Assembly: GCF_900103485.1 (NCBI RefSeq)
Contig: NZ_FNHW01000001.1
Span: 283,418-347,417, forward strand
Source: Fictibacillus solisalsi
Lineage (GTDB): Bacteria; Bacillota; Bacilli; Bacillales; Fictibacillaceae
Length of the DNA: 64,000 nt
Direction: 5' to 3'
Each line of letters begins with the position of its first letter. Positions within the stretch are counted from its first letter, which is position 1. Position numbers and translations under genes: made by a program. Positions 4,235-57,641 of this stretch are shown here, piece after piece. The notes beneath the pieces were generated by a model. The model made no database searches. It had not been told where the DNA came from and saw nothing but the letters and a program-made list of their open reading frames with translations.

Positions 4235-5611
4235 ATGAGAAAATATCTATTTTTAGCAGCTATTATTCTTTATTTGCTGTCGGTCTTCTATCCGACTACC
4301 GCTGTAAAGGTTGCTTTATCCATGGTTTGTATCCTGATTGTCGGAGTAACGTTCACCAAGGTCAGCAGAACGGTTCAAGTCATCAGCAGTATTTTTATTA
4401 GTAGTGGGATTGTCATGCTGGCGAGAAGCGGAGCAGACGAATTAGATTTTATTCAATCGGTAGGTCCCATGATGAACTTGCTTGCTCTTTTTGCGCTGGT
4501 ACCTGTCCTCGCAATTCCGATCCAGCTTGGCAATTATGCACACTCCATCCAGAGCATTATCTTGAGGAAAATTCATAATTCCAAACAACTCTATTTTTTA
4601 ACGTCAGGCGTTTCGTATTTCTTCAGCAGTTTTATGAATTTGGCAAGTCTTCCGATGACCTATTATTCTGTTCGTCCATCTGCCTCTACCTATCACATTC
4701 ATCATGAGGAACGGTTTATGAGCAGAGCAATCACCCATGGATTTGCCATGCCGTTATTATGGACGCCTGTCACTCCCATTGTTGGGATCGTTATCAATAT
4801 GACTGGTGTGTCATGGGGAGAGATGCTTAAATACCTGATTCCATTAAGTTTCGCAGGCCTTCTCATAGATTGGTTGCTGGCTGCTTTAATTTTTAAAAAT
4901 AGACGGCGGACAGCAGTTCTGGGTGCGGATGAAATTGCAGCAGGAGCGGTAAGAGGTGAGAGCAAGGGCAGCAGTGGAAAGTTGCTGCAAATCCTGCTGG
5001 CGATTCTTGTGTTTAACAGCCTGGTCATGTTTACAGAGAAAAAGCTTCCGTTTGATTTTTTGTTTATTGTCACCCTTTATGTGGTTCCCTTTGCTTTTTT
5101 ATGGAGCTTTATTCTTCATAAACAAAAAGGGTTTATCCAAGAAGTGAAACACCATTTTTCCTCCAGTATTGTAAAATTAAGCGGACAATTTATCATTTTC
5201 TTATGTGCCGGGTTCTTTATTTCAGCCATGAAGTTTTCAAATGTGGATCATGTACTTAATGAGGGGCTACTAATTGTAAAAGACGGGGTGGGGAGCCATG
5301 TCTTTTTACTTTTAATTCCTCTTGTACCGCTTGCTTTGGCATTTACAGGTTTGCATCCGGCAGTTGGACTAGCGCTTATGGCTGAAGCGCTCGACCCAGC
5401 GTCTCTTCAAATCGCAACACCGCTTCTGACAGTGGCGATGCTGGGCGGTGCAGTAGGCGCTTTCCTGATGGGGCCTTTTAATGCCACCATTGGTATGATG
5501 GCTTCAATTACAAACGAAAGCCCTTACCGGATATCCAATTGGAACGCAGGGTTTACCGTTAGTTATATGCTGCTTTTGATGAGTTTTTTGTTGGTGCTGC
5601 AATTGGTGTAA
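4235..5611 (+). CDS. polytopic membrane protein, probable transporter
   Basis: 458 residues with roughly 11-12 hydrophobic helices and few charged loops. An internal break near residues 225-250 (charged, GADEIAAGAVRGESKG) divides two halves, as in ion-transporter (IT) superfamily carriers. The C-terminal half contains FTGLHPAVGLALMAEAL and GPFNATIGMMAS, helix-breaking Gly/Pro/Asn stretches of the kind that line IT-superfamily substrate sites. I do not recognise a named family. The ATG at 4235 is preceded by a weak TTGGTGA. It is monocistronic and ends at a strong bidirectional terminator. Confidence 0.7.
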   Translation: MRKYLFLAAIILYLLSVFYPTTAVKVALSMVCILIVGVTFTKVSRTVQVISSIFISSGIVMLARSGADELDFIQSVGPMMNLLALFALVPVLAIPIQLGNYAHSIQSIILRKIHNSKQLYFLTSGVSYFFSSFMNLASLPMTYYSVRPSASTYHIHHEERFMSRAITHGFAMPLLWTPVTPIVGIVINMTGVSWGEMLKYLIPLSFAGLLIDWLLAALIFKNRRRTAVLGADEIAAGAVRGESKGSSGKLLQILLAILVFNSLVMFTEKKLPFDFLFIVTLYVVPFAFLWSFILHKQKGFIQEVKHHFSSSIVKLSGQFIIFLCAGFFISAMKFSNVDHVLNEGLLIVKDGVGSHVFLLLIPLVPLALAFTGLHPAVGLALMAEALDPASLQIATPLLTVAMLGGAVGAFLMGPFNATIGMMASITNESPYRISNWNAGFTVSYMLLLMSFLLVLQLV

Positions 5612-5654: not shown

Positions 5655-5987
5655 TTAAGATACAGGTTCAGCCAATACCAATTTAGAATACTTTGAGTCG
5701 GGTCCTGAACCGGAAGCTGCTACCAGTTCATTCAGTTCCTCTCTCGCTGCTTCCACAGTATCGAAGGTTTCAAAGAATTTTACCCGAATTTGGTTAACAT
5801 ATTCCTTGCCCTCGTAGTTCTCATACAGCTCAATCCTTAGTTGATCATTGGTGACTTTAGCAATGGTGTACGAGGCTTTCACCTTATCAAAAAAGTAAAA
5901 ATCATAGGTTTCCACAGGTTCCAGGCCATCACCTTTAACGGTAGTCTGATAGGTTTCTTTGTTTGTAAGAACGATATACTTCTCCAC
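5655..5987 (-). CDS. 110-residue protein of unknown function, linked to the catabolic regulon
   Basis: 110 residues from a GTG at 5987 with GAGGTGA just upstream. The protein is acidic, soluble, and alpha/beta in character (KYIVLTNKETYQ strand region; DTVEAAREELNELVAA helix at about 77-93), with no cysteines or signal peptide. No family was recognised. Its promoter carries the same TTGGTATACCAA-type operator as the neighbouring oxygenase cluster (site at 6015-6026). A cofactorless accessory or effector subunit is one guess, from size and context only. Confidence 0.6.
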   Translation of the reverse strand: MEKYIVLTNKETYQTTVKGDGLEPVETYDFYFFDKVKASYTIAKVTNDQLRIELYENYEGKEYVNQIRVKFFETFDTVEAAREELNELVAASGSGPDSKYSKLVLAEPVS

Positions 5988-6014: not shown

Positions 6015-6026
6015 TTTGTATACCAT
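6015..6026. promoter_or_regulatory. GntR operator, site 1
   Basis: TTTGTATACCAT, a near match to the palindrome TTGGTATACCAA. It lies 8 bases downstream of a minus-strand promoter pair: TTGATT at 6057-6062, 18 bp spacer, TATGAT at 6033-6038. It would therefore cover the start of the transcript of the 110-residue protein. It is inferred to bind the GntR protein encoded at 13037. Confidence 0.6.
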
Positions 6027-6170: not shown

Positions 6171-6227
6171 CAAAAATAAGTTTCAGAAAATTGGAATATT
6201 TTAAATTTCTTAAGAGAGGTGAAGTGT

Positions 6228-6560
6228 ATGCCATTCGTACGATTGCTTCAGGATGGCCAGATCATTGAGCAAGAGGTAAAGGAGAATAGTAATCTAGTTG
6301 TTTTGGCGGGTACGAACCAGTTCCCGAAACTGCGTTATGGCTGTGGGATGGGTAAGTGCACCAAATGTGTATCGAAAATCGTAAAGGGTGAAGAAGCATT
6401 GAATCCGCCCAATTGGAAAGAAGAAAAAATGCTCGGTCATTACCTTGAAGAAGGGTATCGGCTGGCATGCCAGCTAACAGTAACAGAGGATTTGGAACTC
6501 ATTCAGGAAAAAAATTTTAAGGTAAAAGGTATACAATATTCCAAAACGGCCGAGCGATAA
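6228..6560 (+). CDS. [2Fe-2S] ferredoxin, plant/vertebrate fold
   Basis: 110 residues from the ATG at 6228 (GAGAGGTGA upstream). The cluster ligands are Cys39, Cys44, Cys47 and Cys81 in the C-x4-C-x2-C ... C pattern of beta-grasp [2Fe-2S] ferredoxins, within YGCGMGKCTKC and RLACQ. It is a stand-alone electron carrier with no reductase domain. It is the first gene of an apparent operon with the amidohydrolase and transporter. A second, distinct ferredoxin is encoded at 14716. Supplying electrons to the diiron oxygenase at 8983 is the likely role, inferred from context. Confidence 0.9.
   Translation: MPFVRLLQDGQIIEQEVKENSNLVVLAGTNQFPKLRYGCGMGKCTKCVSKIVKGEEALNPPNWKEEKMLGHYLEEGYRLACQLTVTEDLELIQEKNFKVKGIQYSKTAER
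6526..6537. promoter_or_regulatory. possible intragenic GntR operator, weak
   Basis: AAGGTATACAAT, inside the 3' end of the ferredoxin gene, about 50 bases before the amidohydrolase start. It shares the GGTATACAA core of site 4, but no promoter is seen beside it and it may be a coding coincidence. Confidence 0.3.
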
Positions 6561-6587: not shown

Positions 6588-7349
6588 TTGAATGCTTATG
6601 TTTTAGCAGAAATGACGTATCCGGAAGTAGAGGAAGCATTAACAACGACCGAACTGGCGATTATTCCTGTCGGTGCGCACGAGCAGCACGGTCCGCATTT
6701 AACAGAAAATTGTGATGGCATGCTGGCGGAAAGGATGGCAATACGCCTGGCGGAAAGGCTTTATCCGCAGGCATTGGTTGCACCAACCATTTCAATGGGT
6801 GTGTCTTCGCACCACATGAATTTTGCAGGAACAATAGCACTACAGCCTTCCACCTTAATTTCCATTATCCATGACATGGTTATATCTCTAAAGCAGCACG
6901 GCATCAGCCATTTCTTACTGCTGAATGCCCATGGCGGCAATCAGTCCACTCTCAGTGTAGCCAGCACAGAACTGTCCCAAAAGCTCGGAGTGAACATTTA
7001 TTATGCTAAAACCACCGCTTCTGCAAAAGAAGCCATCAAAAGAAATATACACTCTCCGCTCTTTGGACACAGCTGTGAACGTGAAGTGTCAGAAGCCCTC
7101 TATCTGGCACCATCTATAGTCCGAACGGGCAAACTTGAAAAAGGATCTGTACAAGAAGGAAGATGGAGGAACCTTCGGCCAAGCAGCCCGGTGCAGGGGT
7201 TTTATACCTATGATGAAATGACCGTCAATGGATGTATTGGGGATGCAACGCAAGCGAATGAGGACATCGGCAAAGAGATTGTTGAAGAAGCATTGGACAA
7301 TTTAGAACGAACGCTAAAAGAACTGATCAGCACGGCAGTAAAAGCTTAA
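6588..7349 (+). CDS. creatininase-family amidohydrolase
   Basis: 253 residues from a TTG at 6588 preceded by GGGAGG. The family metal-site motifs are intact: VGAHEQHGPHL (Glu32, His34), Asp43 in NCDGM, His115 in NAHGGNQS and Glu164/Glu166 in HSCEREVSEA. Creatininase and its relatives are Zn/Mn hydrolases of cyclic or formyl amides (creatinine, a flavin-pathway formamide in archaea, the mycofactocin precursor peptide). The family alone does not fix the substrate. It follows the ferredoxin by 27 bases and precedes the transporter, so hydrolysis of an imported amide is a reasonable inference. Confidence 0.85.
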   Translation: MNAYVLAEMTYPEVEEALTTTELAIIPVGAHEQHGPHLTENCDGMLAERMAIRLAERLYPQALVAPTISMGVSSHHMNFAGTIALQPSTLISIIHDMVISLKQHGISHFLLLNAHGGNQSTLSVASTELSQKLGVNIYYAKTTASAKEAIKRNIHSPLFGHSCEREVSEALYLAPSIVRTGKLEKGSVQEGRWRNLRPSSPVQGFYTYDEMTVNGCIGDATQANEDIGKEIVEEALDNLERTLKELISTAVKA

Positions 7350-7386
7350 TAGATATACCTACTTATAACCAAAAGGGGTGCTAGGT

Positions 7387-8856
7387 ATGACATTGACACT
7401 TGCGCATGGAATGTATGCCCTGGTCACGGTGTCCGTTATTGTTATTATGCTTTTCAGAAAGGGCATTGTTTTACCTACGCTGCTCGGCACGCTGGTTGTT
7501 GCCGGTACCTTTACCGGGTCCTTTGTCGGCGGGCTGAAAGCGGTCTTTAATGCCAATCTTGTTGCTGCAAAAGAGTTATTCAGTATCTTTCTAATCATTA
7601 CGTTTATGGTTGCGCTTCTTAAATCGCTGAAAGATCTTGGAGCAGATCAAAAAATGATCGCACCGGTACAGAAAGTTATGGTGAATGGCCACGTAGCCTT
7701 CCTGTGCCTTGCGGTAATTACGTATGTTGTCTCCTTATTTTTCTGGCCGACACCGGCCGTTCCATTAATTTGTGCTTTGCTCGTTCCTGCTGCAGTAAGG
7801 GCCGGCCTTCCTCCGATGGCAGCGGCTATGGCCATTGCAATGGCTGGACAAGGGATGGCACTTTCATCCGATTACATTATGCAGGTAGCTCCAATGCTGA
7901 GTGCAAAAGCAGCTGGGATCAGTACAGCTTCTGTGGCACCAAAAGCACTGTTCCTTTCTTTTATGACTGGTGTCACTGCATTGGCAATCACGTATGTCAG
8001 GGAAAGGAAAACCATTCAGCAGCCTGACCAAACAACTAATTTATCCTTGCTGGACAGTGTGTCAGAATACCAGATGAATATGGAGGCAGAAACAGCTTCT
8101 GAGGTTTCAGCTGCTGCAGACTCCTATGTATCTGAAACAGAAAGGAACCGCTGGGGCAGCATCTTTGCTGTGGTTGTTCCACTATCCATGCTTGCTGTTA
8201 TGATCTATATGTTTTCTATGAAATTTTCGGGAAGCAAGATGACTGGCCTTGAAGGTGGGGATGGTGCTGCTTTTATTGGTGGAGTTGCTATTGTCCTCCT
8301 TGTTCTCGCAAGTATAGCCTTTGGCAGGATGCATGCCTTTGATAAAATCAGTGATCATATTACAGATGGTTTTGTCTTTGCGTTTCGGGCGATGGGACCA
8401 GTTATTCCGATAGCAGGATTCTTCTTTTTAGGAAGCGGTGATTTTGCTGCCAGTATCCTTTCCTTGCCGGCCGATGGGGCAAAGCCTGCATTCTTGTTTG
8501 ATATCGTTCAATCTGCACAAAATTATATTCCACAAAATGGACTCATAACAGGGTTCGGTATTTTAATTGTGGGTATCATTACCGGACTGGATGGAGCTGG
8601 CTTTGCCGGTTTGCCTTTAACCGGAGCATTATCTGGTGCCCTCCATCATGGGACAGGGGTGGAGCCATCAACACTGGCTGCAATAGGTCAAATGGGAGCG
8701 GTTTGGACTGGAGGGGGAACGCTTATTGCATGGTCGTCCCTGGTAGCAGTGGCCGGTTTTTGCGGTGTGTCTGTGATCGAACTGGCAAGAAAGAATTTTT
8801 TCCCGGTGATTATCGGATTATGTGTGGCTACGTTAACAGCTTTACTTATGTGGTGA
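7387..8856 (+). CDS. polytopic transporter in the catabolic cluster
   Basis: 489 residues from the ATG at 7387 (AAAAGGGG upstream). About 12 hydrophobic helices, with a hydrophilic Ser/Thr/Glu-rich loop at about 215-255 between the halves. GLPPMAAAMAIAMAGQGMALSS and TGLDGAGFAGLPLTGALSG are small-residue helical segments like the substrate hairpins of ion-transporter (IT) superfamily carriers. The exact family was not identified. Third gene of the ferredoxin operon and the obvious candidate for uptake of the cluster's substrate. Confidence 0.75.
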   Translation: MTLTLAHGMYALVTVSVIVIMLFRKGIVLPTLLGTLVVAGTFTGSFVGGLKAVFNANLVAAKELFSIFLIITFMVALLKSLKDLGADQKMIAPVQKVMVNGHVAFLCLAVITYVVSLFFWPTPAVPLICALLVPAAVRAGLPPMAAAMAIAMAGQGMALSSDYIMQVAPMLSAKAAGISTASVAPKALFLSFMTGVTALAITYVRERKTIQQPDQTTNLSLLDSVSEYQMNMEAETASEVSAAADSYVSETERNRWGSIFAVVVPLSMLAVMIYMFSMKFSGSKMTGLEGGDGAAFIGGVAIVLLVLASIAFGRMHAFDKISDHITDGFVFAFRAMGPVIPIAGFFFLGSGDFAASILSLPADGAKPAFLFDIVQSAQNYIPQNGLITGFGILIVGIITGLDGAGFAGLPLTGALSGALHHGTGVEPSTLAAIGQMGAVWTGGGTLIAWSSLVAVAGFCGVSVIELARKNFFPVIIGLCVATLTALLMW

Positions 8857-8885: not shown

Positions 8886-8915
8886 TTGACACCCATTCCG
8901 GATCAGAGTTAGTAT
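8886..8915 (+). promoter_or_regulatory. SigA promoter of the oxygenase operon
   Basis: TTGACA (8886-8891) and TAGTAT (8910-8915) with an 18 bp spacer, followed 8 bases later by a perfect operator. It drives the diiron oxygenase gene and probably the four downstream genes. Confidence 0.65.
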
Positions 8916-8923
8916 TAAGACAG

Positions 8924-8935
8924 TTGGTATACCAA
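8924..8935. promoter_or_regulatory. GntR operator, site 2 (perfect palindrome)
   Basis: TTGGTATACCAA, the best copy in the window. It covers the expected transcription start of the promoter at 8886-8915, so a bound repressor would block initiation. Confidence 0.7.
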
Positions 8936-8982: not shown

Positions 8983-9702
8983 ATGGCTGAATTATTATCG
9001 AAGGACGAGTTTCGCAAGCAGTTGGAAGAGGCGATTAAAGGGAATCACAGTCAGAAAGCAGCTTTTACTGAAGCATGGGCAACTGGAAAGCTAGCTCGTG
9101 AGCATTTTGCCAGATGGGCAGAAAATCATTATCACTATGTAGGACCATTCGCTGATTATCTCGCTTATATTTACGCTCATACCCCTGAGAAATATACAGA
9201 AGCAAAAGACTTCACCCTTCAAAATATGTACGAAGAAGAACTTGCTGCAGACCGACATACCGATCTTCTCATCCGGTTTGCAGAAACTTGTGGAACCACC
9301 CGTGAACGGGTAGAAGATCCGAACAATATGGCGCCTACTACCTTAGGATTGCAAAGCTGGTGCTATTCTATTGCGATGAGAGAGAATTTTGTTGTTGCGA
9401 CGGCAGCTCTGGTTGTTGGTTTGGAATCCCAGGTTCCGGACATTTACCGAAAGCAGACTCCTATTCTTCGAGAAAAATATGGATTTGACGATGAGCAGAT
9501 CGAGTTTTTTGATCTACATATCGTGTCAGATGAAATTCATGGAGAGCGCGGGTACAAAATCGTTCTTGAATGTGCAGACACGGTAGAACTGCAGCAGAAA
9601 TGCCTGGAAGTGGTTCGAACCGGAGCCAAGATGCGGAGAATGTATATGGACGGGCTGTATAACACTTATGTAGCCAAGGACCTTGAAACCGTACAATCCT
9701 AA
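8983..9702 (+). CDS. heme-oxygenase-like diiron oxygenase (HDO), TenA/PqqC superfamily
   Basis: 239 residues, all-helical, ATG after AAAAGGAGGAG. The CADD-type diiron ligand pattern is complete: Glu85-x6-His92 in EEELAADRH, Glu148 in GLESQVP, and His179-x3-Asp183-x2-His186 in HIVSDEIHGERG. The spacing matches Chlamydia CADD (E81/H88/E142/H174/D178/H181). Such HDOs catalyse N-oxygenation, C-C cleavage or decarboxylation with O2 and an electron source. The conserved metal set argues against a cofactor-free PqqC or a TenA thiaminase, which lack it. It is the first gene of the operator-controlled operon, and two ferredoxins lie in the same regulon. Confidence 0.85.
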   Translation: MAELLSKDEFRKQLEEAIKGNHSQKAAFTEAWATGKLAREHFARWAENHYHYVGPFADYLAYIYAHTPEKYTEAKDFTLQNMYEEELAADRHTDLLIRFAETCGTTRERVEDPNNMAPTTLGLQSWCYSIAMRENFVVATAALVVGLESQVPDIYRKQTPILREKYGFDDEQIEFFDLHIVSDEIHGERGYKIVLECADTVELQQKCLEVVRTGAKMRRMYMDGLYNTYVAKDLETVQS

Positions 9703-9731: not shown

Positions 9732-9770
9732 CAGGCAGTTTCTCATTGAGAGGAACTGCCCTCATTTTTC
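9732..9770 (+). terminator. hairpin between oxygenase and aldehyde dehydrogenase genes
   Basis: GGCAGTT (9734-9740) pairs with AACTGCC (9754-9760), with CTC/GAG inside, followed by CTCATTTTTC. The T tract is imperfect, so partial termination or 3'-end protection of the oxygenase message is more likely than a full stop. Confidence 0.45.
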
Positions 9771-9795: not shown

Positions 9796-11256
9796 ATGCC
9801 AACAACCACAGCAGTAAAGTCCTTTGGAAACTATATCAATGGCGAATGGGTAGAAGAAGAAAACGTGTTTTCCAGTATAAATCCTGCAGATCGCAGCGAT
9901 ATTGTCGGTCATTTTCAGTCATCCAGTGAGGAAACCGCAAAAAAGGCACTTGAGGCAGCAAGGAGTGCCTTTCGTTCCTGGTCCAAGACATCGCCTTCCA
10001 AGCGCGCTGCCATATTAACAAAAGCAGCAGATCTTCTCAACAGCCGATCCAAGCAAATCGCGGAAGAATTAACCCGTGAAGTAGGGAAACCGATAGGCGC
10101 AAGCTTAAATGAAGTTAAGCGTTCCGCCGAAACGCTTCGTTACTATGCGGTGGAAGGCATAAGCTACACGGGAGAAACCTTTCCGAACGATGATCCGAAC
10201 TTACGAGTGTATACCATAAAGGAGCCTTTAGGTGTCATTTCTGTTATTACACCATGGAACTTTCCGCTATCCATTCCCGCGCGTAAAATCGCCCCCGCCC
10301 TGATAACAGGAAACACGGTTGTTTTCAAGCCATCCTCTGATTCTCCGCTCGTCGGTTTCAGGCTGGCAGAAGCTTTACATGAAGCTGGCCTTCCTAAAGG
10401 AGTGCTCAATTTTGTTACAGGTTCATCAAATGAAATTGGGGATATTCTTGTCACACATCCAGCGGTAAGAGGAGTCACATTTACAGGTTCAACAGGGGCA
10501 GGTGAACAAATTCACAGATCTGTTGCCCTGACAACGAGGACCCAAATGGAGCTCGGAGGAAAGAATCCTCTCATCGTTATGGAGGATGCCGATTTAGATG
10601 AAGCGGTCAAACTGACTATCAATGGCGGTTTTGGTTTAAGCGGACAGGCTTGTACAGGAACCAGCCGGGTGATTGTCATAAAAAGCGTCAAGGAAGAGTT
10701 TACAAACCGTCTTATACAGAAGACCAAAGAGCTTACAGTTGCAAATGGCTTTACCAAGGGTGTCTTCATGGGGCCGTTGGCCAATGAAAAACAGCTAAAG
10801 AATGTTCTTGATTATATAAAAATCGGCAGGAGTGAAGGCGCCGAATTATTATGCGGGGGAGAGCAGCTGACGGGTACTGGTTATGATGACGGGTACTTTG
10901 TAAGCCCGGCCGTTTTTACCAATGTGAAGCCTGGAATGAGGATTGAGCAAGAAGAGATTTTCGGCCCCGTGATCTGCCTGATTGAAGCAGAAAATTACGA
11001 AGAAGCGGTTTCGATTGCAAATAACGTGGAATACGGTCTTTCTGCTGCTATTGTCACCAACCAGGTCCATTATATCGAGCGGTTTCTAAAGGAAGCGGAA
11101 GCCGGAACCGTCAAATCCAACCGTACGACCACGGGGAATCTTATGAATGCCCCCTTTGGCGGTATCAAAAAATCCAGCACATCCACCTTTCGTGAATCAG
11201 GAAGAGTGGGCCTAGAATTTTTTACACAAACGAAAACCGTTTATTACGGACATTAA
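9796..11256 (+). CDS. NAD(P)-dependent aldehyde dehydrogenase
   Basis: 486 residues, the standard ALDH superfamily length. The oxyanion Asn155 lies in TPWNFP, Lys178 in VVFKPSS, the general base Glu252 in MELGGKNP and the nucleophile Cys286 in GQACTGTS. All catalytic residues are present. GSTGAG at 231-236 is the nucleotide-binding turn. The ATG follows GCAGGGAGGTACGTC. It lies 93 bases after the oxygenase gene, so it most simply oxidises an aldehyde made by that enzyme or downstream of it. Substrate range cannot be read from sequence. Confidence 0.92.
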   Translation: MPTTTAVKSFGNYINGEWVEEENVFSSINPADRSDIVGHFQSSSEETAKKALEAARSAFRSWSKTSPSKRAAILTKAADLLNSRSKQIAEELTREVGKPIGASLNEVKRSAETLRYYAVEGISYTGETFPNDDPNLRVYTIKEPLGVISVITPWNFPLSIPARKIAPALITGNTVVFKPSSDSPLVGFRLAEALHEAGLPKGVLNFVTGSSNEIGDILVTHPAVRGVTFTGSTGAGEQIHRSVALTTRTQMELGGKNPLIVMEDADLDEAVKLTINGGFGLSGQACTGTSRVIVIKSVKEEFTNRLIQKTKELTVANGFTKGVFMGPLANEKQLKNVLDYIKIGRSEGAELLCGGEQLTGTGYDDGYFVSPAVFTNVKPGMRIEQEEIFGPVICLIEAENYEEAVSIANNVEYGLSAAIVTNQVHYIERFLKEAEAGTVKSNRTTTGNLMNAPFGGIKKSSTSTFRESGRVGLEFFTQTKTVYYGH

Positions 11257-11276: not shown

Positions 11277-11756
11277 ATGAAAACGGCACTCAAACTTGAA
11301 ATGAAAGAAGCTAGAATCTTGATGGAAGCCGCTGTAAAAAAAGCGGAGGAAATTAACGTGCTGGAAACCATCGTTGTAGTCGATGACGGCGGGTATCCGA
11401 TTCTTCTCGAGAGAATGGATGGCGCAAGAATTACCGGTCCGGAAATTGCCATAGCAAAAGGTTTCACCGCTGCAGGCCATAAACGTTCTACGCATCTATT
11501 TAACAAAGAGCCGAATGGGCCAGCTTTGCCTGGTAATGAGGCGTTTGGGATTCAGCACATGCTGGATGGAAAGTTTGCAATATTTGTTGGCGGATTTCCC
11601 ATCGTTGTTGACGGAGAGGTCATTGGGGGCATTGGGATCAGCGGAGGCAACGGCGAACAGGATACAGCGGTCGGAGTGGCTGCGCTGCAAGCATTACGGG
11701 AGCATCTTTCAAAAGAGGGGCATGAAGTTGCAGCAGATGCCGATATAAAACGATAA
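11277..11756 (+). CDS. GlcG/HbpS family protein (heme-degrading domain, PduO C-like)
   Basis: 159 residues with the GlcG/HbpS/PduO-C fold signature: helix MKEARILMEAAVKKAEE, VVVDDGGYPILLERMDGA, and the C-terminal VGGFPIVVDGEVIGGIGISG block. Members bind heme or corrinoid, or occur as unassigned accessory genes in glycolate and aromatic-compound operons. The ATG at 11277 follows GGGGAGGGGG and lies 20 bases from the dehydrogenase stop, so the two genes are co-transcribed. Its role here is unknown. An accessory to metal or heme handling for the diiron enzyme is a guess. Confidence 0.85.
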   Translation: MKTALKLEMKEARILMEAAVKKAEEINVLETIVVVDDGGYPILLERMDGARITGPEIAIAKGFTAAGHKRSTHLFNKEPNGPALPGNEAFGIQHMLDGKFAIFVGGFPIVVDGEVIGGIGISGGNGEQDTAVGVAALQALREHLSKEGHEVAADADIKR

Positions 11757-11761: not shown

Positions 11762-11792
11762 AAGGGCTGCCACGAATATGACGGCGGCCCTT
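11762..11792 (+). terminator. weak hairpin between glcG-like and chromate-transporter genes
   Basis: GGGCTGCC pairs with GGCGGCCC (one G-U pair) around an 11-base loop, followed only by TTTGG. Without a full T run it could attenuate rather than end transcription. Confidence 0.35.
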
Positions 11793-11828
11793 TGGCCATT
11801 AGCTGCCAGTTCTAAAGGGGGATTGAGT

Positions 11829-12425
11829 ATGAGAGCTTATTTAGATCTATGTATTGGCTTTGCGAGGACCGGTGTCACAGGGTATGGCGGCGGTCCCTCC
11901 ATCATTCCACTTATTGAATATGAAGCCGTTAAAAAGTATAAGTGGATGAACGCAGATGAATTCGGGGACACACTGGCATTGGCCAACACCCTGCCAGGAC
12001 CAATCGCGACGAAAATGGCTGCTTATATCGGTTTTAAAGTGAAAGGTTCCATTGGAGCGCTTGTAGCAATTGTTGCACATATCCTTCCGTCAAGTATTGC
12101 GATGATGGTTCTACTGGGCTTCCTGTATTCGTTTAGGAATTCCCCGGTTGTCAAGGGGATGGTAGCGGGGGTGAGCCCTGTTATTGGTGTGATGCTTGCT
12201 GTTTTAGCATTTCAATTTTTGGCGAAAAGCAGAAAAACGATGGGGACCAAGTGGATGGGAGTCTTTGCTGTTCTGGCTTTCCTTCTTCTTCAAATTATTT
12301 CCTTGCATCCTGGTATTGTCATTGGCTTGTTTTTGTCAGGTGCATTTATTCTATCAACCTATAAAATCAAGAAAGCAGACGGATGGAAACGCCCGGTCAT
12401 GCAGAAAAGGGAACGGCAGCTATGA
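11829..12425 (+). CDS. chromate-transporter family protein, half 1
   Basis: 198 residues. The CHR-family signature GYGGGPSIIPLIEYEAV lies near the N terminus, with ANTLPGPIATKMAAYIGFK after it and about 5-6 membrane helices. This is a single-domain (short-chain) member, normally working with a second half encoded next door. The start at 11829 follows AAAGGGGGATTGAG. Its last codon overlaps the start of half 2 (ATGA). In this GntR cluster the pair may export an organic or inorganic oxyanion; chromate itself is not implied by the context. Confidence 0.88.
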   Translation: MRAYLDLCIGFARTGVTGYGGGPSIIPLIEYEAVKKYKWMNADEFGDTLALANTLPGPIATKMAAYIGFKVKGSIGALVAIVAHILPSSIAMMVLLGFLYSFRNSPVVKGMVAGVSPVIGVMLAVLAFQFLAKSRKTMGTKWMGVFAVLAFLLLQIISLHPGIVIGLFLSGAFILSTYKIKKADGWKRPVMQKRERQL

Positions 12426-12958
12426 TCTATTTACATATTTTTTGGGCATTTTTTGTCGCTAACTTGCTTGGTTATGGTGGAGGACCTTCAACGATTCCTT
12501 TGATCCAAAATGAGGTGGTACAACATTATGGATGGATGACAAATAAAGAATTTGGAGATCTGTTAGCCATGGCTAATGTTCTGCCAGGTCCGATTGCAAC
12601 AAAAATGGGCGGCTATGTCGGCTACGAGGTTGGCGGTGTACTGGGTGCTGTGCTAGCCCTTCTTGCGACCATTGGACCTTCAGCTATTGCTGTCATTTTA
12701 TTATTTACGTTTGCCAACCGTTTTAAGGACGCCTTGCAGATCCAATGGATGACAAGGTCAGTTCAACCCGTCATTGCGGTGCTTCTTGCTGTTTTGGCAT
12801 ACCAATTTTTATTATCCGCATTTGAGGAAATGGGTTGGATTCACCTGATTCTACTTGGAGCAGGCAGCTATTTTGCCATGGAGAGAATGAAAATTCACCC
12901 GGCAATCGTCATTGTCGCCTCCCTTTTTTATGGAGGGTTCTTTCTCTCCCACATATGA
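12422..12958 (+). CDS. chromate-transporter family protein, half 2
   Basis: 178 residues, with GYGGGPSTIPLIQNEVV and ANVLPGPIATKMGGYVGYE near the N terminus, paralogous to half 1. The start at 12422 overlaps the upstream stop by 4 bases, so translational coupling and a heteromer are expected, as in known B. subtilis short-chain CHR pairs (YwrB/YwrA). The N-terminal positive loop patterns differ between the halves, consistent with opposite membrane orientation. It ends directly before a hairpin and the repressor's promoter. Confidence 0.88.
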   Translation: MIYLHIFWAFFVANLLGYGGGPSTIPLIQNEVVQHYGWMTNKEFGDLLAMANVLPGPIATKMGGYVGYEVGGVLGAVLALLATIGPSAIAVILLFTFANRFKDALQIQWMTRSVQPVIAVLLAVLAYQFLLSAFEEMGWIHLILLGAGSYFAMERMKIHPAIVIVASLFYGGFFLSHI

Positions 12959-12978: not shown

Positions 12979-13001
12979 CTGAACAGAAAACAAGATATAA
13001 T
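12973..13001 (+). promoter_or_regulatory. SigA promoter of the GntR repressor gene
   Basis: TTGTTT (12973-12978), 17 bp spacer, perfect TATAAT (12996-13001). The operator starts on the last base of the -10, which implies negative autoregulation. Confidence 0.7.
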
Positions 13002-13012
13002 TGGTATACAAT
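13001..13012. promoter_or_regulatory. GntR operator, site 3 (autoregulatory)
   Basis: TTGGTATACAAT, immediately after the -10 of the repressor's own promoter and 25 bases before its start codon. Ten of 12 bases match the palindrome. Confidence 0.65.
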
Positions 13013-13036
13013 TTTCAGACAGTAGGTGGGTTATAC

Positions 13037-13708
13037 ATGCAGAGCAGGTGGGCTGAAGAAGACTTACTTTCGATTCGTGAACGTGCATACCGCTATTTAA
13101 AAGATATGATTCTAAATGGGGAGTATCAGGCAGGCGACCGGCTGGTTGAACGGGAACTGGCTGATAAGCTCCACATTAGCAGAACCCCCATACGTGAGGC
13201 GCTCTTCCGGCTGGAGTCACAAGGGTTTGTAAAAACAGTACCCCGTAAAGGAGTCGTTGTTGAACGAATCAGTGAGGACGAAGTAGTGGAAGTTTTTACG
13301 ATATTATCTTCTTTGGAAGTACTCGCTTCAAAGCTGGCAGCTCAAAAAATGGATGAAAAAACACAGCTGGAATTCGACAAGGTCATCGAGAAACTTCAGA
13401 ATTTGGAAGGTTTGTCTGAAGAAGAAGTATCCGACCTTCACCTGGACACGAATCAGATTTTGCATAAAGCAGCAAAAAGTCCAAAACTGTACGAGATGCT
13501 CACGGGATTAACGGACTACATCCGAATTTTTTCAAACACGAGTTATGAGACTCCCGGAAGAAAAGAAGAATCCATGAAAGAGCATCTGGAAATTATGAAA
13601 GCTGTGCGAAACAAAGATGTTGAAATGGGCGAGTATCTAACCAAAATCCATATCGAAAACTCAAAGAGAGCTTACATTAATTATGTGGAGCAAAATAAAA
13701 AAGGGTAG
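13037..13708 (+). CDS. GntR family regulator, FCD (FadR/VanR) subfamily
   Basis: 223 residues from the ATG at 13037 (GGTGG upstream). The winged HTH is at about 18-75: RAYRYLKDMILNGEYQAGDRL, then ELADKLHISRTPIREALFRLES as the recognition unit. The C-terminal all-helical FCD effector domain spans about 90-215, with the typical LHLDTNQILHKAAKSP and MKEHLEIMKAV segments whose His/Asp residues usually hold a metal near a carboxylate effector. A palindrome TTGGTATACCAA occurs at its own promoter and at four other promoters of the cluster, always on or just past the -10. It is therefore inferred to be the cluster's repressor, released by a pathway carboxylate. Confidence 0.88.
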   Translation: MQSRWAEEDLLSIRERAYRYLKDMILNGEYQAGDRLVERELADKLHISRTPIREALFRLESQGFVKTVPRKGVVVERISEDEVVEVFTILSSLEVLASKLAAQKMDEKTQLEFDKVIEKLQNLEGLSEEEVSDLHLDTNQILHKAAKSPKLYEMLTGLTDYIRIFSNTSYETPGRKEESMKEHLEIMKAVRNKDVEMGEYLTKIHIENSKRAYINYVEQNKKG

Positions 13709-13743
13709 AAAACGAAGGTGATTTCGTTTTCTGCCCTTTTTTA
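13703..13743. terminator. bidirectional terminator
   Basis: AGGGTAGAAAACGAA and TTTCGTTTTCTGCCCT form a stem with one mismatch around GGTGA, with T runs outward on both strands. It separates the convergent gntR and aspartate-dehydrogenase-like genes. Confidence 0.85.
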
Positions 13744-14544
13744 TATACCAATCACAATGGGGGAAAACAAATTTTCCAATGCTTTGATGACACTCATCGA
13801 AACGATATAGCTCGATTTGGGGTTTTCAGGAAACGGTGTATTCTGAACTTCCAGCGTTATGCTGCCGAAATTACCTACGGCTCTCACCTCATGCTTGTTT
13901 TTCTCTATCGTTGGGTCTGCATAAACTTTTACTTTTGTTTCGTTGAACCCTTGGCCTGCCAAACTAAGTGCAGCTGAAACGTTTACACTTTCAGGAAAAA
14001 GCCGGGCAGACTCATTGGCATTTCCTTCAAACACACAGACCGGTTCCACAAGTGCTGCAAGATCGATCTTATCCTCAACAAAGGTTCCCTTCCAGGCCTG
14101 CGGTGGTTTCCTCGTAGTGAGTGTCACACTGTCCAATCGTCCGATTGATGCAGCGGTGATCCTGTCGAGCCCGCCAATAGCGGAGGAAGGAATAATCAAC
14201 TTTGATTGGTTTGAATTAGCCGTTTCCTTTAGTAATTGAAGAAGGTGTCCATCACGTAAAGCCCCCACAGAAACGATGATCAGATGAGCTCCAGTTGAAA
14301 GGGCCTGGACTCCATAGGTCTCCAAAGCATGATGGCCGGCTGCTTCAATAATGACATCATATTTGTTGGCAAAGAATTCATCCGGTTGGTGGGTAATCAT
14401 CCATTCCTCCTGTGAGAGATTCCGCAATTTGTCTGGAGAGCGAACCAGAATTCCTTTTAATCTTGCACCTTTTAAATAATCCTGAAAATAGGAAGCGATA
14501 TCCTGCCCGATTGCTCCATATCCAATGAGGCCGACATTCAACAC
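13741..14544 (-). CDS. aspartate dehydrogenase-like oxidoreductase (NadX family)
   Basis: 267 residues from a GTG at 14544. The N-terminal Rossmann motif GLIGYGAIGQDIASY is followed by the AspDH signature region IIPSSAIGGLDRITAASIG and LTTRKPPQAWKG. A conserved NVSAALSLAGQGFNETKVKVYADP block lies near the C terminus. Known members catalyse NAD(P)-linked oxidative deamination or the reverse on L-aspartate or similar amino acids. Its placement in an operator-controlled catabolic cluster, without nadA or nadC, argues for an amino-acid-like intermediate rather than NAD synthesis. It is monocistronic with its own promoter and operator. Confidence 0.82.
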   Translation of the reverse strand: MLNVGLIGYGAIGQDIASYFQDYLKGARLKGILVRSPDKLRNLSQEEWMITHQPDEFFANKYDVIIEAAGHHALETYGVQALSTGAHLIIVSVGALRDGHLLQLLKETANSNQSKLIIPSSAIGGLDRITAASIGRLDSVTLTTRKPPQAWKGTFVEDKIDLAALVEPVCVFEGNANESARLFPESVNVSAALSLAGQGFNETKVKVYADPTIEKNKHEVRAVGNFGSITLEVQNTPFPENPKSSYIVSMSVIKALENLFSPIVIGI

Positions 14545-14572: not shown

Positions 14573-14584
14573 TTGGTATACTAA
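14573..14584. promoter_or_regulatory. GntR operator, site 4
   Basis: TTGGTATACTAA, 11 of 12 bases matching the palindrome, one base downstream (minus strand) of the -10 of the aspartate-dehydrogenase-like gene. Confidence 0.65.
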
Positions 14585-14652: not shown

Positions 14653-14681
14653 TTGTTTAAGATTACCTTTAATGGTATATT
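14653..14681 (+). promoter_or_regulatory. promoter of the second ferredoxin gene
   Basis: TTGTTT (14653-14658), 17 bp spacer, TATATT (14676-14681). The -35 hexamer is identical to that of the gntR promoter and the -10 overlaps the operator. Confidence 0.65.
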
Positions 14682-14690
14682 GTATACCAT
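14672..14690. promoter_or_regulatory. GntR operator, site 5, within a longer inverted repeat
   Basis: ATTGTATACCAT (14679-14690) overlaps the -10. It lies in a larger perfect inverted repeat, ATGGTATA-TTG-TATACCAT (14672-14690), which could offer two overlapping half-site pairs to the repressor. Confidence 0.6.
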
Positions 14691-14715: not shown

Positions 14716-15051
14716 ATGCCAAAACTCCATTTTATTACGAGTAATAAAGAGTTTGAAGTTCCTGATCATTCAAGTGTACTTAGAATGTCCCTGCGATATG
14801 ATGGGGACCTTCCCAACCGCTGTGGCGGGGGAACATGCGGAACCTGTGTATGTAAAATTGAAAAGGGTTTGGAAAATGTAGATAAAGTGAAGCCTGCGGA
14901 GAAAAAAAAACTAGGTGAGGAGCTTTTGGAACAAGGCTACCGATTGGGCTGCCAGACGTTTGTAAATGGAGATGTATCTCTGTCGTGGGATCCAGAGATT
15001 ACAAAAATGGTCCAAAAAAGAAAAATAGTGAAATTGACTGCAGCCAAATAA
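14716..15051 (+). CDS. [2Fe-2S] ferredoxin, second copy of the cluster
   Basis: 111 residues, ATG at 14716 after GAGGAGG. The ligands Cys36, Cys41, Cys44 and Cys79 sit in RCGGGTCGTC and YRLGCQ, the same C-x4-C-x2-C ... C layout as the ferredoxin at 6228. Overall sequence similarity to that copy is modest, so this is not a recent duplication. It has its own operator-controlled promoter. Two separately controlled ferredoxins suggest either redundancy or two electron-accepting partners. Confidence 0.9.
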   Translation: MPKLHFITSNKEFEVPDHSSVLRMSLRYDGDLPNRCGGGTCGTCVCKIEKGLENVDKVKPAEKKKLGEELLEQGYRLGCQTFVNGDVSLSWDPEITKMVQKRKIVKLTAAK

Positions 15052-15429: not shown

Positions 15430-15549
15430 ACAGTATACTTTGATTCTAATTGATTATCAATATCATTTAGTGAAATGGTATACCAAAATTAATCTTTTTT
15501 TATTAATAAATAAGAAGATTATAGGTTTTATAAACGGATTGTATACCAA
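15430..15549. promoter_or_regulatory. three operator-like sites in a gene-free stretch
   Basis: ATGGTATACCAA at 15475-15486 and ATTGTATACCAA at 15538-15549 match the GntR operator (11 and 10 of 12 bases). A weaker ACAGTATACTTT lies at 15430-15441. A TATAAA at 15529-15534 sits just before the last site, but no -35 or credible gene follows. The stretch 15321-15636 is otherwise AT-rich without a supported gene. Confidence 0.5.
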
Positions 15550-48684: not shown

Positions 48685-48767
48685 CCGATTAATGATTGTT
48701 ATGAAATACATACGAAAATAGTAATGCTTGGCCTTTATGAAAAGCAAGTATGAAGGAGGTTTTTGAC

Positions 48768-50375
48768 ATGAAAGGAAAGCTGCTCATCATCGGATTCGGA
48801 CCGGGAAGCTATGACCACATTACCGAACGGGCAAAGCAGGCGATTGGGGAAAGTGACTGTATTGTCGGCTATAAAACGTATGTGGAACTCATCAGCGGCC
48901 TGATCACCGACCAGAAAATCATCAGTACTGGCATGTCCGAGGAAGTCAGCCGGGCTCAGGCGGCTGTGAAAATGGCCGAAGAAGGACAAAAGGTGGCGGT
49001 CATCTCGAGCGGGGATGCCGGCGTTTATGGGATGAGCGGACTCGTATACGAGGTGCTCGTGGAAAAAGGCTGGAAGGAAGCTACTGGGGTGGAAGTGGAA
49101 GTGATTCCGGGGATCTCGGCGATTAATTCCTGTGCATCTCTTCTGGGCGCTCCTGTCATGCATGATGCGTGTACGATCAGCTTAAGTGATCACTTGACAC
49201 CTTGGAAGCTGATTGAAAAACGCATTGAAGCCGCGGCACAGGCGGATTTCGTCATCGCTTTTTATAACCCGAAAAGCGGAAGACGCACGAGACAAATCGT
49301 TGAGGCGCAAAAAATTTTACTTCGGCATCGTTCACCGGAAACACCGGTCGGCCTCGTGAAAAGTGCATACCGTGACCGGGAGAGTGTGGTGATCACGAAC
49401 CTCCAGGACATGCTCAATCATGACATCGGCATGCTGACGACAGTCATCGTCGGAAACACGCAAACCTTTTTGTATGACGAAAACAAGCTTATTACACCAC
49501 GAGGGTACCAGCGGAAATACACGCTGAATACGGAAAAGCAGCGATTACGGCCACATGAACGCCTGCGTAAGGAAAACGAACCATGGGCACTGCCGGACGA
49601 AGAACCGGTAAGTGAAAAGGCAGAAACTCAAGTTAGCGCCCTTCAGCTCGCTAACGAAGCGCTAGCTCTTGCGACCGGTAAGCAGGAGGAAGTGACTGCG
49701 GAAGCTATCATTCCATCACGAGTTGAATCCATTCTGGAATTTGGGGTGAGTCCTGGCCTTGTGAACAAGAAATTTACGGCAAAACAGCTCCTGACCTTAG
49801 CCGAAGTGGTAGGGGAGCACGGAGAGATGGAGTACACGCCTCATCATCAAATCAAGGTGCAGCTGTCGACGGACGAGCCGGAACATGTCACAGAAAAGCT
49901 GAAAGCAGAAGGCTTCCTGCTGCTTCCTGCGGGGGATGTCCTCCAGATTAAGGCGTGTGACTTCTGTGACGGTGAAAAGTATGATTCCATTCCGTATGTG
50001 GAACAGCTGCAGGAAGAACTTGGCGGACGGCCGCTTCCAAAGGAATTGAAGCTTGGGTTTAATGGCTGCGGAATGGCTTGCTATGGTGGTGTTCAAGAGG
50101 ATATCGGCATCGTGTTCCGCAAAGGCAAATTCGATCTGTTCCTTGGAGGCAAGCCGCTCAGCCGGACCGCGCACTCTGCCCAGCCGGTGATGGAAGGAAT
50201 CGAACCGGATCAGCTGGTGGGTATCGTTACAGGCATTATTCAGGAATATGAGGACAAAGGGCATCCAAATGAGCGGTTCTTTAAGTTCTTTAAGCGGGTG
50301 CAAGAAGTTGGCGGCTTCAAACACAGAGACATGGCTCCGGTTATTCAACTTGAACCGGCGCCATGCGGAGATTAA
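48768..50375 (+). CDS. cbiH60: cobalt-precorrin-3 C17-methyltransferase fused to Fe-S domain (CbiH60)
   Basis: 535 residues from the ATG at 48768 (GAAGGAGG upstream), about twice the size of CbiH. Residues 1-240 are the tetrapyrrole methylase (GFGPGSYDHIT, SSGDAGVYGMSG, PGISAINSCASLLGAP). The C-terminal part resembles nitrite/sulfite reductase ferredoxin half-domains, with Cys397-x2-Cys400 and Cys434-x3-Cys438 as [4Fe-4S] ligands. The B. megaterium fusion methylates C17 and contracts the ring in one protein. SAM and cobalt-precorrin-3 are the substrates. Confidence 0.95.
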   Translation: MKGKLLIIGFGPGSYDHITERAKQAIGESDCIVGYKTYVELISGLITDQKIISTGMSEEVSRAQAAVKMAEEGQKVAVISSGDAGVYGMSGLVYEVLVEKGWKEATGVEVEVIPGISAINSCASLLGAPVMHDACTISLSDHLTPWKLIEKRIEAAAQADFVIAFYNPKSGRRTRQIVEAQKILLRHRSPETPVGLVKSAYRDRESVVITNLQDMLNHDIGMLTTVIVGNTQTFLYDENKLITPRGYQRKYTLNTEKQRLRPHERLRKENEPWALPDEEPVSEKAETQVSALQLANEALALATGKQEEVTAEAIIPSRVESILEFGVSPGLVNKKFTAKQLLTLAEVVGEHGEMEYTPHHQIKVQLSTDEPEHVTEKLKAEGFLLLPAGDVLQIKACDFCDGEKYDSIPYVEQLQEELGGRPLPKELKLGFNGCGMACYGGVQEDIGIVFRKGKFDLFLGGKPLSRTAHSAQPVMEGIEPDQLVGIVTGIIQEYEDKGHPNERFFKFFKRVQEVGGFKHRDMAPVIQLEPAPCGD

Positions 50376-50386
50376 GGAGGAAAACA

Positions 50387-51289
50387 ATGAAAGCAATTTT
50401 AATGGTTGGGCATGGCAGCCGGGATCCAGAAGGCAATGAACAGGTTCGCACCTTTATCGACGAAATACGGACAAAAGTGGATTCCGAATTGCTCGTCGAA
50501 ACGTGTTTTCTCGAGTTTGAGAGGCCTGGTATTCATGAAGGTATTGAGAGTTGTGTACAAAAAGGCGCCACTTCGGTAGCCGTGGTGCCGATCATGCTGC
50601 TTCCGGCAGGGCACTCCAAGATTCACATTCCAGCAGCCATTGATGAGGCGAAGGAAAAATATCCGCATATTACTTTTTCGTACGGCCGGCCGATCGGTAT
50701 CCATGAAGCGGCACTCGATATTTTGACTCACCGTCTTGAGGAGATTGGAGAAGATACCGCATCTCCCGATGAGGACACTGCTGTCATTTTTCTCGGGCGT
50801 GGAGGCAGTGATCCGGACGCCAATAGTGATTTGTACAAGATTACGAGACTGCTGTGGGAGCGTCTAAATTACAAGATTATTGAACCTTCCTTTATGGGAG
50901 TGACCGATCCGCTGGTTGCCGAAGGAGTGGAGCGATGCATCAAGCTCGGCGCCAAAAAGGTTATCATCCTTCCGTACTTTCTATTTACCGGTATCCTGAT
51001 CAACCGTCTCGAGAAGATGGTGGAGGATTTCAAACAGCAGTATTCAGAACATGAATTCCAGCTGGCGCAGTATTTCGGTTTTCATCCGGATCTTCAGAAA
51101 ATCCTGATCGACCGGATGGAAGAGGTACTGCAGGGAGAAGTAAAAATGAACTGCGATACATGCCAGTACCGTCTGGACGCGATGGAGCATATCGGCCACC
51201 ACCATCATCATGATCACGATCATAGTCATGGGCATCATCACCACCATAGTCATGATCATTCCCATGAGCCGGAGGAGCAGAAGGTATGA
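50387..51289 (+). CDS. cbiX: sirohydrochlorin cobaltochelatase, long form with His-rich tail
   Basis: 300 residues from the ATG at 50387 (AAGGAGG upstream). The long form CbiX(L) has two chelatase half-domains; the catalytic His9 lies in MVGHGSRD. Near the C terminus a MxCxxC motif (MNCDTC) is the [Fe-S] ligand site known from B. megaterium CbiX. It is followed by a tail with about 18 His among Asp and Ser (HHHHHDHDHSHGHHHHHSHDH). The enzyme inserts Co2+ into sirohydrochlorin. The stop overlaps the next start by 4 bases. Confidence 0.95.
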   Translation: MKAILMVGHGSRDPEGNEQVRTFIDEIRTKVDSELLVETCFLEFERPGIHEGIESCVQKGATSVAVVPIMLLPAGHSKIHIPAAIDEAKEKYPHITFSYGRPIGIHEAALDILTHRLEEIGEDTASPDEDTAVIFLGRGGSDPDANSDLYKITRLLWERLNYKIIEPSFMGVTDPLVAEGVERCIKLGAKKVIILPYFLFTGILINRLEKMVEDFKQQYSEHEFQLAQYFGFHPDLQKILIDRMEEVLQGEVKMNCDTCQYRLDAMEHIGHHHHHDHDHSHGHHHHHSHDHSHEPEEQKV

Positions 51290-52062
51290 TTCTTTTTCTT
51301 GCGGGAACGAGTGATGCACGGGAGCTTGCAATCACCATAAAAGAAGCGGGCTACCCGCTTCTTGCCACAGTGGTCACGGAAAATGCAGCGCTGGAGCTCC
51401 GAAAGAATGGATTGAATGTACATACGGGCCGGCTCAATCAAGAGGAAATCGGAAATTTTATTGAACAGTACGGCGTTACGATGGTAGTGGATGCGTCCCA
51501 TCCGTTTGCCGAGGAAGCGAGCAAGAATGCGATGGCAGGGGCAAGGGAAAAAGGTGTTCTTTACCTCCGCTATGAGCGGGACCGGCAGGATTATGAGCAT
51601 AAGCATCTTCAGGCAGCCGACACGTATGAAGATGCGGCAGAAAAAGCGGGAGAGCTTGGCGGCGTTATCATGCTGACGACCGGCAGCAAGACCCTTCAGA
51701 TTTTTACCGAAAAATTGCTGCATCAGACCAATGTTACCCTGATTGCACGCATGCTGCCGAGAAAAGACAATATGGAAAAATGCGAACAGCTTGGCTTTCC
51801 GCAAAAGAATATCGTGGCCATTCAAGGGCCGTTCACAAAAGACTTCAACAAAGCTTTGTTTCAGCAGTTCAAGGTGGATGTAATGATCACCAAGGAAAGC
51901 GGCAAACAGGGAGCCGTGGATGAGAAAGTGGAAGCGGCACTCGAGATGGGGATTCAGGTGGTCATGATCAAACGGCCGAAAATCGTCTATGAAAATCAGT
52001 ACTCAAATTTTGAAGATATCTTGCAGCATATTTCGCGGGAATGGAGAGGAGTTTTAGCATGA
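51286..52062 (+). CDS. cbiJ: cobalt-precorrin-6A reductase
   Basis: 258 residues, CbiJ/CobK family: LFLAGTSDARELAITI at the N terminus, VVDASHPFAEEASKNA in the middle and VMITKESGKQGAVDEKVEAALEMGIQVVMIKRP near the end. It reduces a macrocycle double bond with NAD(P)H. It overlaps both neighbours by 4 bases, so translation is coupled. Confidence 0.94.
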   Translation: MILFLAGTSDARELAITIKEAGYPLLATVVTENAALELRKNGLNVHTGRLNQEEIGNFIEQYGVTMVVDASHPFAEEASKNAMAGAREKGVLYLRYERDRQDYEHKHLQAADTYEDAAEKAGELGGVIMLTTGSKTLQIFTEKLLHQTNVTLIARMLPRKDNMEKCEQLGFPQKNIVAIQGPFTKDFNKALFQQFKVDVMITKESGKQGAVDEKVEAALEMGIQVVMIKRPKIVYENQYSNFEDILQHISREWRGVLA

Positions 52063-52715: not shown

Positions 52716-52717
52716 CC

Positions 52718-55020: not shown

Positions 55021-55021
55021 T

Positions 55022-57620: not shown

Positions 57621-57641
57621 AAAAAACTGGAGATGAAGAGC

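Follow-up and report, generated by a model that had tools for sequence, protein, structure and literature searches.

The window, i.e. the whole stretch of 64,000 nucleotides of the Fictibacillus solisalsi genome that was analysed, contains a gene cluster in which a candidate oxygenase of the heme-oxygenase-like diiron oxygenase (HDO) fold (hereafter, the oxygenase) is encoded. The genes of the cluster are given below; fractions indicate the number of related loci in which each gene was found by tblastn, the set of 85 loci being defined in the section on the conserved gene set.

4235–5611, + strand: putative membrane carrier B; no Pfam or NCBIfam match; 66/69 Bacillota loci
5655–5987, − strand: small protein of about 110 amino acids that matches no family and may be an effector or assembly partner; 83/85
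6219–6560, + strand: [2Fe-2S] ferredoxin 1 (PF00111); 81/85
6588–7349, + strand: creatininase-family amide hydrolase (PF02633, E = 2.2e-60); 72/85
7378–8856, + strand: putative membrane carrier A; no Pfam or NCBIfam match; 82/85
8983–9702, + strand: HDO-fold diiron oxygenase candidate (PF14518, E = 1.1e-35), with residues E85, H92, E148, H179, D183, and H186
9796–11256, + strand: aldehyde dehydrogenase (ALDH; PF00171); 84/85
11277–11756, + strand: HbpS/GlcG-like protein (PF03928); 85/85
11778–12425, + strand: CHR (chromate-type anion) transporter half (PF02417)
12383–12958, + strand: CHR transporter, second half (PF02417; NF053760, 222 against a cut-off of 250, i.e. below it); CHR transporter in 66/85
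13001–13708, + strand: GntR/FCD regulator (PF00392, PF07729), probably starting at ATG 13037; GntR in 83/85
13741–14544, − strand: aspartate-dehydrogenase-like protein (NadX; NF009828, 245 against a cut-off of 177, i.e. above it); 53/85
14716–15051, + strand: [2Fe-2S] ferredoxin 2 (PF00111); 83/85

The ALDH is nearest to the 2-oxoglutarate-semialdehyde and P5C/betaine-aldehyde types, but every family profile shown scores under its cut-off (e.g. NF042993, 576 versus 770); its match to 3qan has an E value of 3e-95. PDB relatives of the HbpS-like protein include EfgA, a formaldehyde sensor, and NahX. Neither carrier offers a clue to its substrate, as carrier A has no Pfam, NCBIfam, or convincing PDB match and carrier B no Pfam or NCBIfam match. 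Elsewhere in the window, positions 48750–60513 are occupied by ordinary cobalamin (cbi) biosynthesis genes (CbiX, CbiJ, CbiD, CbiG, methylases, and CobB/CobQ type).

The oxygenase and its ligand set

The oxygenase ORF occupies exactly 8983–9702, starts with ATG, is immediately preceded by an AGGAGG-type ribosome site, and encodes 239 amino acids; the genome contains one copy. In addition to Haem_oxygenas_2 (PF14518), the weaker Pfam match TENA_THI-4 (PF03070) is also above the cut-off. As the sequence-only reading had anticipated, a protein of this kind usually receives only a TenA or iron-containing redox label: the Pfam name is 'Iron-containing redox enzyme', and the Caballeronia record is entitled 'iron-containing redox enzyme family protein'.

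The same reading held that Glu85, His92, Glu148, His179, Asp183, and His186 reproduce the metal ligands of CADD, and this is borne out by a phmmer alignment, in which the six residues match, in the same order and with the same spacing, the CADD ligands E81, H88, E142, H174, D178, and H181. This 3His/3carboxylate set is unchanged in all 72 distinct relatives with at least 60% identity, which represent 102 loci before the removal of identical sequences; they include a 97% identical copy in F. terranigra. Such invariance inside the family is weak proof because 104 of the 239 positions are invariant among 25 homologs, and the retention of the ligands in more distant genes weighs more. Ten distinct genes lie below 60% identity (in 13 rows, three genes being counted twice), and 8 of them retain all six, including a sister oxygenase (L118) with 44–46% identity and five pABA-synthase-like relatives with 24–29% identity, which also keep the Tyr and Lys of the pABA synthases. 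The set is not kept in the two others of this group, L113 and L105, and in the alignment at least four of the six residues are missing from the PqqC-like L120. E47, which would be the candidate for a seventh ligand such as the extra Glu of SznF, is invariant in 25 of 25 homologs.

An AlphaFold2 model of the oxygenase (mean pLDDT, 82.3; pTM, 0.80; two of the five models were poor, with 61.5 and 57.5) has the TenA/PqqC/heme-oxygenase-like helical fold; the blocks 81–90 and 171–190, which hold four of the ligands, have pLDDT values of 64–77. In VIA-align 2, CADD ranks first (Z 21.2, 210–212 residues, 2.7–2.8 Å; for the metal-bound structure 8va9, Z 21.2 over 210 residues at 2.7 Å), tied with PqqC (21.1) and followed by UndA (19.8) and HrmI (19.4), with FlcD and PolF also among the matches. 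The overlay on CADD, one of the checks proposed with the sequence-only reading, gives that reading indirect support. Foldseek places PqqC at the top and CADD third. The diiron centre and its activation of O2 are predicted from this ligand set.

The nearest solved structures by sequence are the pABA synthases NePabS (9pj4) and CADD (1rcw, 8va9), which sacrifice a Tyr and a Lys of their own; Tyr41 is also described as essential in NePabS (PMC11965152). Position 29 of the oxygenase, which corresponds to the sacrificial Tyr27/Tyr25 of CADD/PabS, is Thr in 54 and Ser in 18 of the 72 relatives, and position 158, which corresponds to the amino-donor Lys152/Lys159, is Gln in all 72. Furthermore, W45 and H49 stand in place of NePabS Tyr41 and Tyr45 in 25 of 25 homologs, as aligned via the PabS-like L119. 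With the Tyr and the Lys replaced, the oxygenase is not a self-sacrificing enzyme of the CADD type. It also scores below the cut-offs of both the CADD/PabS profile TIGR04305 (97.1 bits versus 200; E = 1e-27) and the PqqC profile TIGR02111 (39.5 bits versus 240).

The family is rare: in an even draw of genomes, 1 of 398 from the phylum of the window carries it, namely the window's own. In the class of G435, 14 of 274 genomes have any match and a close one is found only in G435 itself. The phage collection contained no match. The sister oxygenase (L118; also L123:9329) adjoins a Rieske protein and an HbpS-like gene, and an operator-like site lies nearby (the sister locus L123 has one site of the operator described below). 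The pairing of an HDO with an HbpS-like protein thus extends past the family of the window oxygenase.

Conserved gene set in two phyla

The loci of the best 80 of 495 relatives, together with three plasmid loci and five genome stretches, gave 88 loci, which were searched by tblastn with the window proteins, Caballeronia proteins, and some cluster representatives. After three loci with distant HDOs (L123–L125) were dropped, 85 remained for counting, i.e. 69 'Bacillota' loci (L010–L077 and L079, among them L040, which is titled Chryseobacterium) and 16 Pseudomonadota loci; loci cut by contig ends were scored as misses. The HbpS-like gene was found in all 85 loci. The ALDH was missed only in the SAR116 locus L083, where these queries found only the oxygenase, both ferredoxins, the HbpS-like gene, and the small protein. 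Carrier B was found in 66 of the 85 loci. Among further genes, those for RidA, a ferredoxin reductase, an ornithine-cyclodeaminase family (OCD) protein, and a GGT-family hydrolase were found in 32, 25, 9, and 5 loci, respectively. The reductase, a Fer2-FAD-NAD protein in the Pseudomonadota clusters, is present in 14 of the 16 Pseudomonadota loci and 11 of the 69 Bacillota loci. All nine OCD genes are in Pseudomonadota (9/16), often at the place that NadX takes in Bacillota; the OCD protein of L089 shows, at scores below the cut-offs, a likeness to reductases that include the pyrroline-2-carboxylate and iminosuccinate types. At least one of NadX, OCD, and RidA occurs in 75 of the 85 loci. In L080 (8391–9863) and L084 (7956), from Candidimonas and Billgrantia, respectively, a GGT-family hydrolase lies directly upstream of the oxygenase. 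As many of the Bacillota loci are near relatives, these counts overstate independence, and the agreement of the gene set between two phyla is stronger evidence than the raw numbers.

A shared operator

Comparison of the intergenic stretches of the window identified a palindrome, TKGTATACMA, that is common to them. The 64 kb contain six copies, all between 6016 and 15548 (9.5 kb), against 0.14 expected from shuffled sequences. When one mismatch to TGGTATACCA is allowed, two more sites appear, upstream of NadX and inside a CHR gene. The regulatory features are as follows (operator sites are unstranded; those without remark match the pattern exactly).

6016–6025: operator TTGTATACCA, between the small protein and ferredoxin 1
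8886–8915, + strand: sigma-70-like promoter before the oxygenase gene (TTGACA, 18 nt, TAGTAT; 10/12 matches)
8925–8934: operator palindrome TGGTATACCA, between this promoter and the oxygenase gene
9734–9760, + strand: terminator-like hairpin after the oxygenase gene (11 pairs, then CTCATTTTTC)
13002–13011: operator TGGTATACAA, ahead of the probable GntR start (ATG 13037)
14574–14583: operator TGGTATACTA, upstream of the NadX gene, one mismatch
14680–14689: operator TTGTATACCA, upstream of ferredoxin 2

Sigma-70-like sites hardly exceed chance in the region (21 versus 17.4), so the support for the promoter comes from its position before the operator. The remaining two copies (15476–15485 and 15539–15548) lie past ferredoxin 2, and no convincing gene adjoins them; they may be the relic promoter of a lost gene, because RidA lies downstream of ferredoxin 2 in several relatives. 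No operator was found upstream of carrier B in the window.

The operator pattern occurs 445 times in the 68 loci L010–L077 and the reversed control 9 times. Within 300 bases upstream, where divergent neighbours share sites, the oxygenase has a site in 68/68 cases and the small protein in 67/67, followed by ferredoxin 2 (58/66), carrier B (57/65), ferredoxin 1 (50/67), creatininase (36/68), carrier A (32/67), and NadX (25/49). It is rare before GntR hits (8/97), ALDH (1/69), HbpS (0/68), and CHR (1 and 0 of 62); the ALDH, HbpS, and CHR genes are thus attached as neighbours rather than by an operator of their own. L079, which lies outside these 68 loci, has no site close to the oxygenase. Among the 16 Pseudomonadota loci, a site is near the oxygenase in five (three from Billgrantia, L082, and L122), elsewhere in another five, and absent from six.

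In the whole genome, the pattern occurs 29 times, compared with 21 for the reversed control, and 6 of the 29 sites fall within the 9.5-kb cluster; outside the cluster, the pattern is therefore background, and only the clustering is striking. Twelve of the 23 non-cluster sites were inspected: 10 lie inside listed ORFs, one (L137) lies outside, and one precedes a carrier start. The last (L135:1612–1621) is situated just before the likely start of a carrier on the − strand (L135:176–1621) that by eye is of the major-facilitator type and is a possible further member of the regulon.

The factor that binds the palindrome is likely to be the GntR/FCD protein, judging by where it lies in the cluster and by the kind of site. 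From these sequence comparisons, the oxygenase unit appears to be a regulon that includes the small protein, the ALDH, and the HbpS-like protein; this, like the lack of CADD-type self-sacrifice, had escaped the sequence-only reading. The suggestion of the sequence-only reading that the neighbouring ferredoxins provide the reductant gains support here. Kept in 81 and 83 of the 85 loci and sharing a palindrome with the oxygenase, they are not chance neighbours, and the pair would represent the dedicated electron-transfer proteins of a multicomponent oxygenase.

A small protein that accompanies the oxygenase

The small protein, of 110 amino acids in the window, shows 29–90% identity in an alignment of 33 sequences. 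It has no match in Pfam (best E, 0.24), NCBIfam, or, by sequence, the PDB. Its model (pLDDT, 83.6) consists of six strands of at least three residues followed by a long helix, and no fold match was obtained, the top hits having an E value of 0.2 in Foldseek and a Z of 4.5 (an Ig-like domain) in VIA; the effectors of soluble diiron monooxygenases are not among the fold matches listed.

Of 34 genomes of the family, the nine with the oxygenase are also the nine with the small protein. Among 299 Pseudomonadota genomes, one of whose positives (G433) was the centre of the draw, the small protein was found in three, exactly those with a close oxygenase (E below 1e-140), and it was absent from the three with distant HDO-fold hits. 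Because the genes are linked, this co-occurrence ties the small protein to the oxygenase unit without pointing to a role. It is the most novel single part of the cluster, and its distribution makes it a candidate effector, coupling, or assembly protein dedicated to the oxygenase.

Proposed function and alternatives

Several of the neighbours bear on the chemistry. The near-constant presence of the ALDH implies an aldehyde product, and the types to which it is nearest would fit a carboxylated or amine-bearing aldehyde; the kinship of the HbpS-like protein with EfgA would also fit an aldehyde-releasing step. An amino or imino acid is suggested by the presence of NadX, OCD, or RidA in 75 loci, and an amide on the same route by the amide hydrolases (creatininase, GGT). 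The imino-acid step is not universal, since NadX is missing in 32 of the 85 loci and all three proteins in 10. Taken together, the ALDH, the imine enzymes, and the amide hydrolase favour a ferredoxin-fed monooxygenation of an amino-acid-like substrate in which a bond is broken.

On the basis of the conserved ligands, the fold, the conserved gene set, the shared operator, and the co-occurrence described above, the following scheme can be proposed. The GntR/FCD repressor would be released from the TKGTATACMA sites by the substrate or product, and uptake of the substrate would fall to the carriers. Electrons from a reductase, encoded in the cluster in some loci and presumably elsewhere in other genomes, would pass through the two ferredoxins to the diiron centre at E85, H92, E148, H179, D183, and H186, where O2 would bind and the substrate would be cleaved oxidatively to give an aldehyde, with the small protein acting as a dedicated effector, coupling, or assembly partner. 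The adjacent ALDH would then oxidize the released aldehyde, and an amino or imino acid of the same route may be handled by NadX, the OCD-family enzyme, or RidA; the creatininase- or GGT-type hydrolase may act on an amide. We consider it likely that the oxygenase belongs to a dedicated, ferredoxin-dependent multicomponent system of the HDO superfamily that is used in catabolism, and the system probably yields an aldehyde from an amino-acid-like substrate. More specifically, but only tentatively, the likeliest type of reaction may be one in which a carboxylated amine or amino acid is monooxygenated, a C–N or C–C bond is cleaved, and the aldehyde is released.

With regard to individual substrates, homarine is unsupported, as the literature search found no report that was on point by its title; ectoine, imidazoleacetate, opines, and N-alkyl amino acids, weighed by reasoning only, are likewise unsupported.

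The described functions of HDOs are biosynthetic or cofactor-forming in the parts of the HDO review drawn on here (PMC13108848), and HrmI, FlcD, UndA, and PolF are among the fold matches of the oxygenase, so that an N-oxygenase, desaturase, or lyase (such as HrmI, BesC, or PolF) making a small natural product from a cryptic cluster has to be considered. The typed recurrent neighbours include no peptide synthetase, ligase, or resistance gene, and an ALDH, a creatininase, NadX, RidA, carriers, and a GntR/FCD regulator are what one typically finds in degradative gene sets, which makes a biosynthetic role improbable.

A second alternative is an organosulfonate monooxygenase that would convert R-CH2-SO3− to an aldehyde and sulfite, the aldehyde being oxidized by the ALDH and sulfite or sulfate being exported by CHR/TSUP carriers. 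Oxidative desulfonation is carried out with other folds by TauD and methanesulfonate monooxygenase. Desulfonation remains a live alternative because CHR transporters recur (66/85 loci), as do TSUP (TauE/SafE, PF01925) carriers (five Pseudomonadota loci), and because a sulfite-oxidase-type molybdenum protein adjoins the oxygenase in one locus. However, TSUP and CHR carriers move many anions, the molybdenum protein turned up in a single one of the 88 loci and is absent from the window, none of the typed neighbours was recognized as a known desulfonation gene, and the amide hydrolase would have no clear place; the chance that this alternative is correct is accordingly small. The molybdenum protein is encoded at L081:8126–9355 (− strand) and one of the TauE/SafE carriers at L080:5895–6644 (− strand), a possible hint of sulfur chemistry in these loci.

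A non-redox protein of the TenA/PqqC type, in which the six residues are structural, would accord with the above-cut-off match to PF03070 and with the high rank of PqqC in both fold searches, but is very unlikely given that the ligands persist in 8 of 10 distant genes, and are mostly lost in the PqqC-like L120, and that the oxygenase is strictly linked to ferredoxins. A pABA synthase or a folate-linked member of the CADD family, suggested by the closest solved relatives and by the E value for TIGR04305, is rejected as extremely improbable on account of the sub-threshold score for that profile, the replacement of the Tyr, the Lys, and the two further Tyr residues, and the lack of a folate gene among the typed window neighbours.

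Comparison with known systems

The oxygenase shares with CADD and NePabS the fold and the pattern and spacing of the six ligands, but differs in having W45 and H49 and no sacrificial residues, in its own ferredoxins, and in its catabolic neighbours. UndA, BesC, HrmI, PolF, and SznF likewise share the fold and the 3His/3carboxylate set, SznF having a further carboxylate ligand (3His/4carboxylate) according to PMC13108848, but these enzymes serve biosynthesis or alkene formation. The structural alignments of HDOs with the oxygenase have 11–17% identity, and SznF is not among the matches listed.

That reductase-fed HDOs exist is indicated by MboA of mangotoxin formation, which has a dedicated flavin/Fe2S2 reductase partner, MboB (PMC13185094). 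The likeness to the window system is that of an HDO with a dedicated electron donor, and the Fer2-FAD-NAD reductase of the Pseudomonadota clusters is of the same general kind. The MboA–MboB pair differs in acting in peptide biosynthesis, and no separate ferredoxins, small protein, or ALDH are described for it in the parts of the source cited here (PMC13185094).

A 2026 review counts about a dozen validated HDOs, with biosynthetic or cofactor-forming roles; in the passages drawn on here, it reports that the HDOs studied do not depend on a protein effector and calls for means of assigning functions to the many remaining ones (PMC13108848). Against that account, an HDO that serves catabolism and has two ferredoxins and a small protein of its own would be a new form of a known kind of enzyme. 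No report of this gene set was found in a search of the open-licence PMC literature, reports elsewhere being possible. The cluster suggests that the rare, oxygen-activating HDO family, known mostly from the making of natural products, is also used to digest a nutrient. We regard as rather doubtful the furthest-reaching version of the proposal, in which the small protein would have a new fold and serve as effector or coupling protein, and the oxygenase would be the first HDO to work as a true multicomponent monooxygenase and one of the first to degrade a nutrient. The regulon lends itself to testing: besides the oxygenase, it comprises the proteins that probably supply the electrons, a dedicated partner protein, a regulator for which a candidate operator is defined, and later enzymes that limit which chemistry is possible. 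As the system is present in cultured Bacillota and in Cupriavidus, screens for induction and growth could be used to look for its substrate.

Among catabolic systems, the 2-aminoisobutyrate monooxygenase AibH1H2/AibF/AibG combines a dinuclear oxygenase with a ferredoxin and a reductase; as a catabolic amino-acid monooxygenase with a ferredoxin, it resembles the system proposed here, but has an amidohydrolase fold and an Mn/Fe centre. The soluble diiron monooxygenases consist of an oxygenase of the ferritin-like fold, a ferredoxin or reductase, and a small non-redox effector. Their fold is unrelated to that of the window oxygenase, but their component set is similar and serves as a working analogy: if the furthest-reaching version of the proposal is correct, the oxygenase, ferredoxins, reductase, and effector would form the heme-oxygenase-fold counterpart of the arrangement found in methane and phenol monooxygenases.
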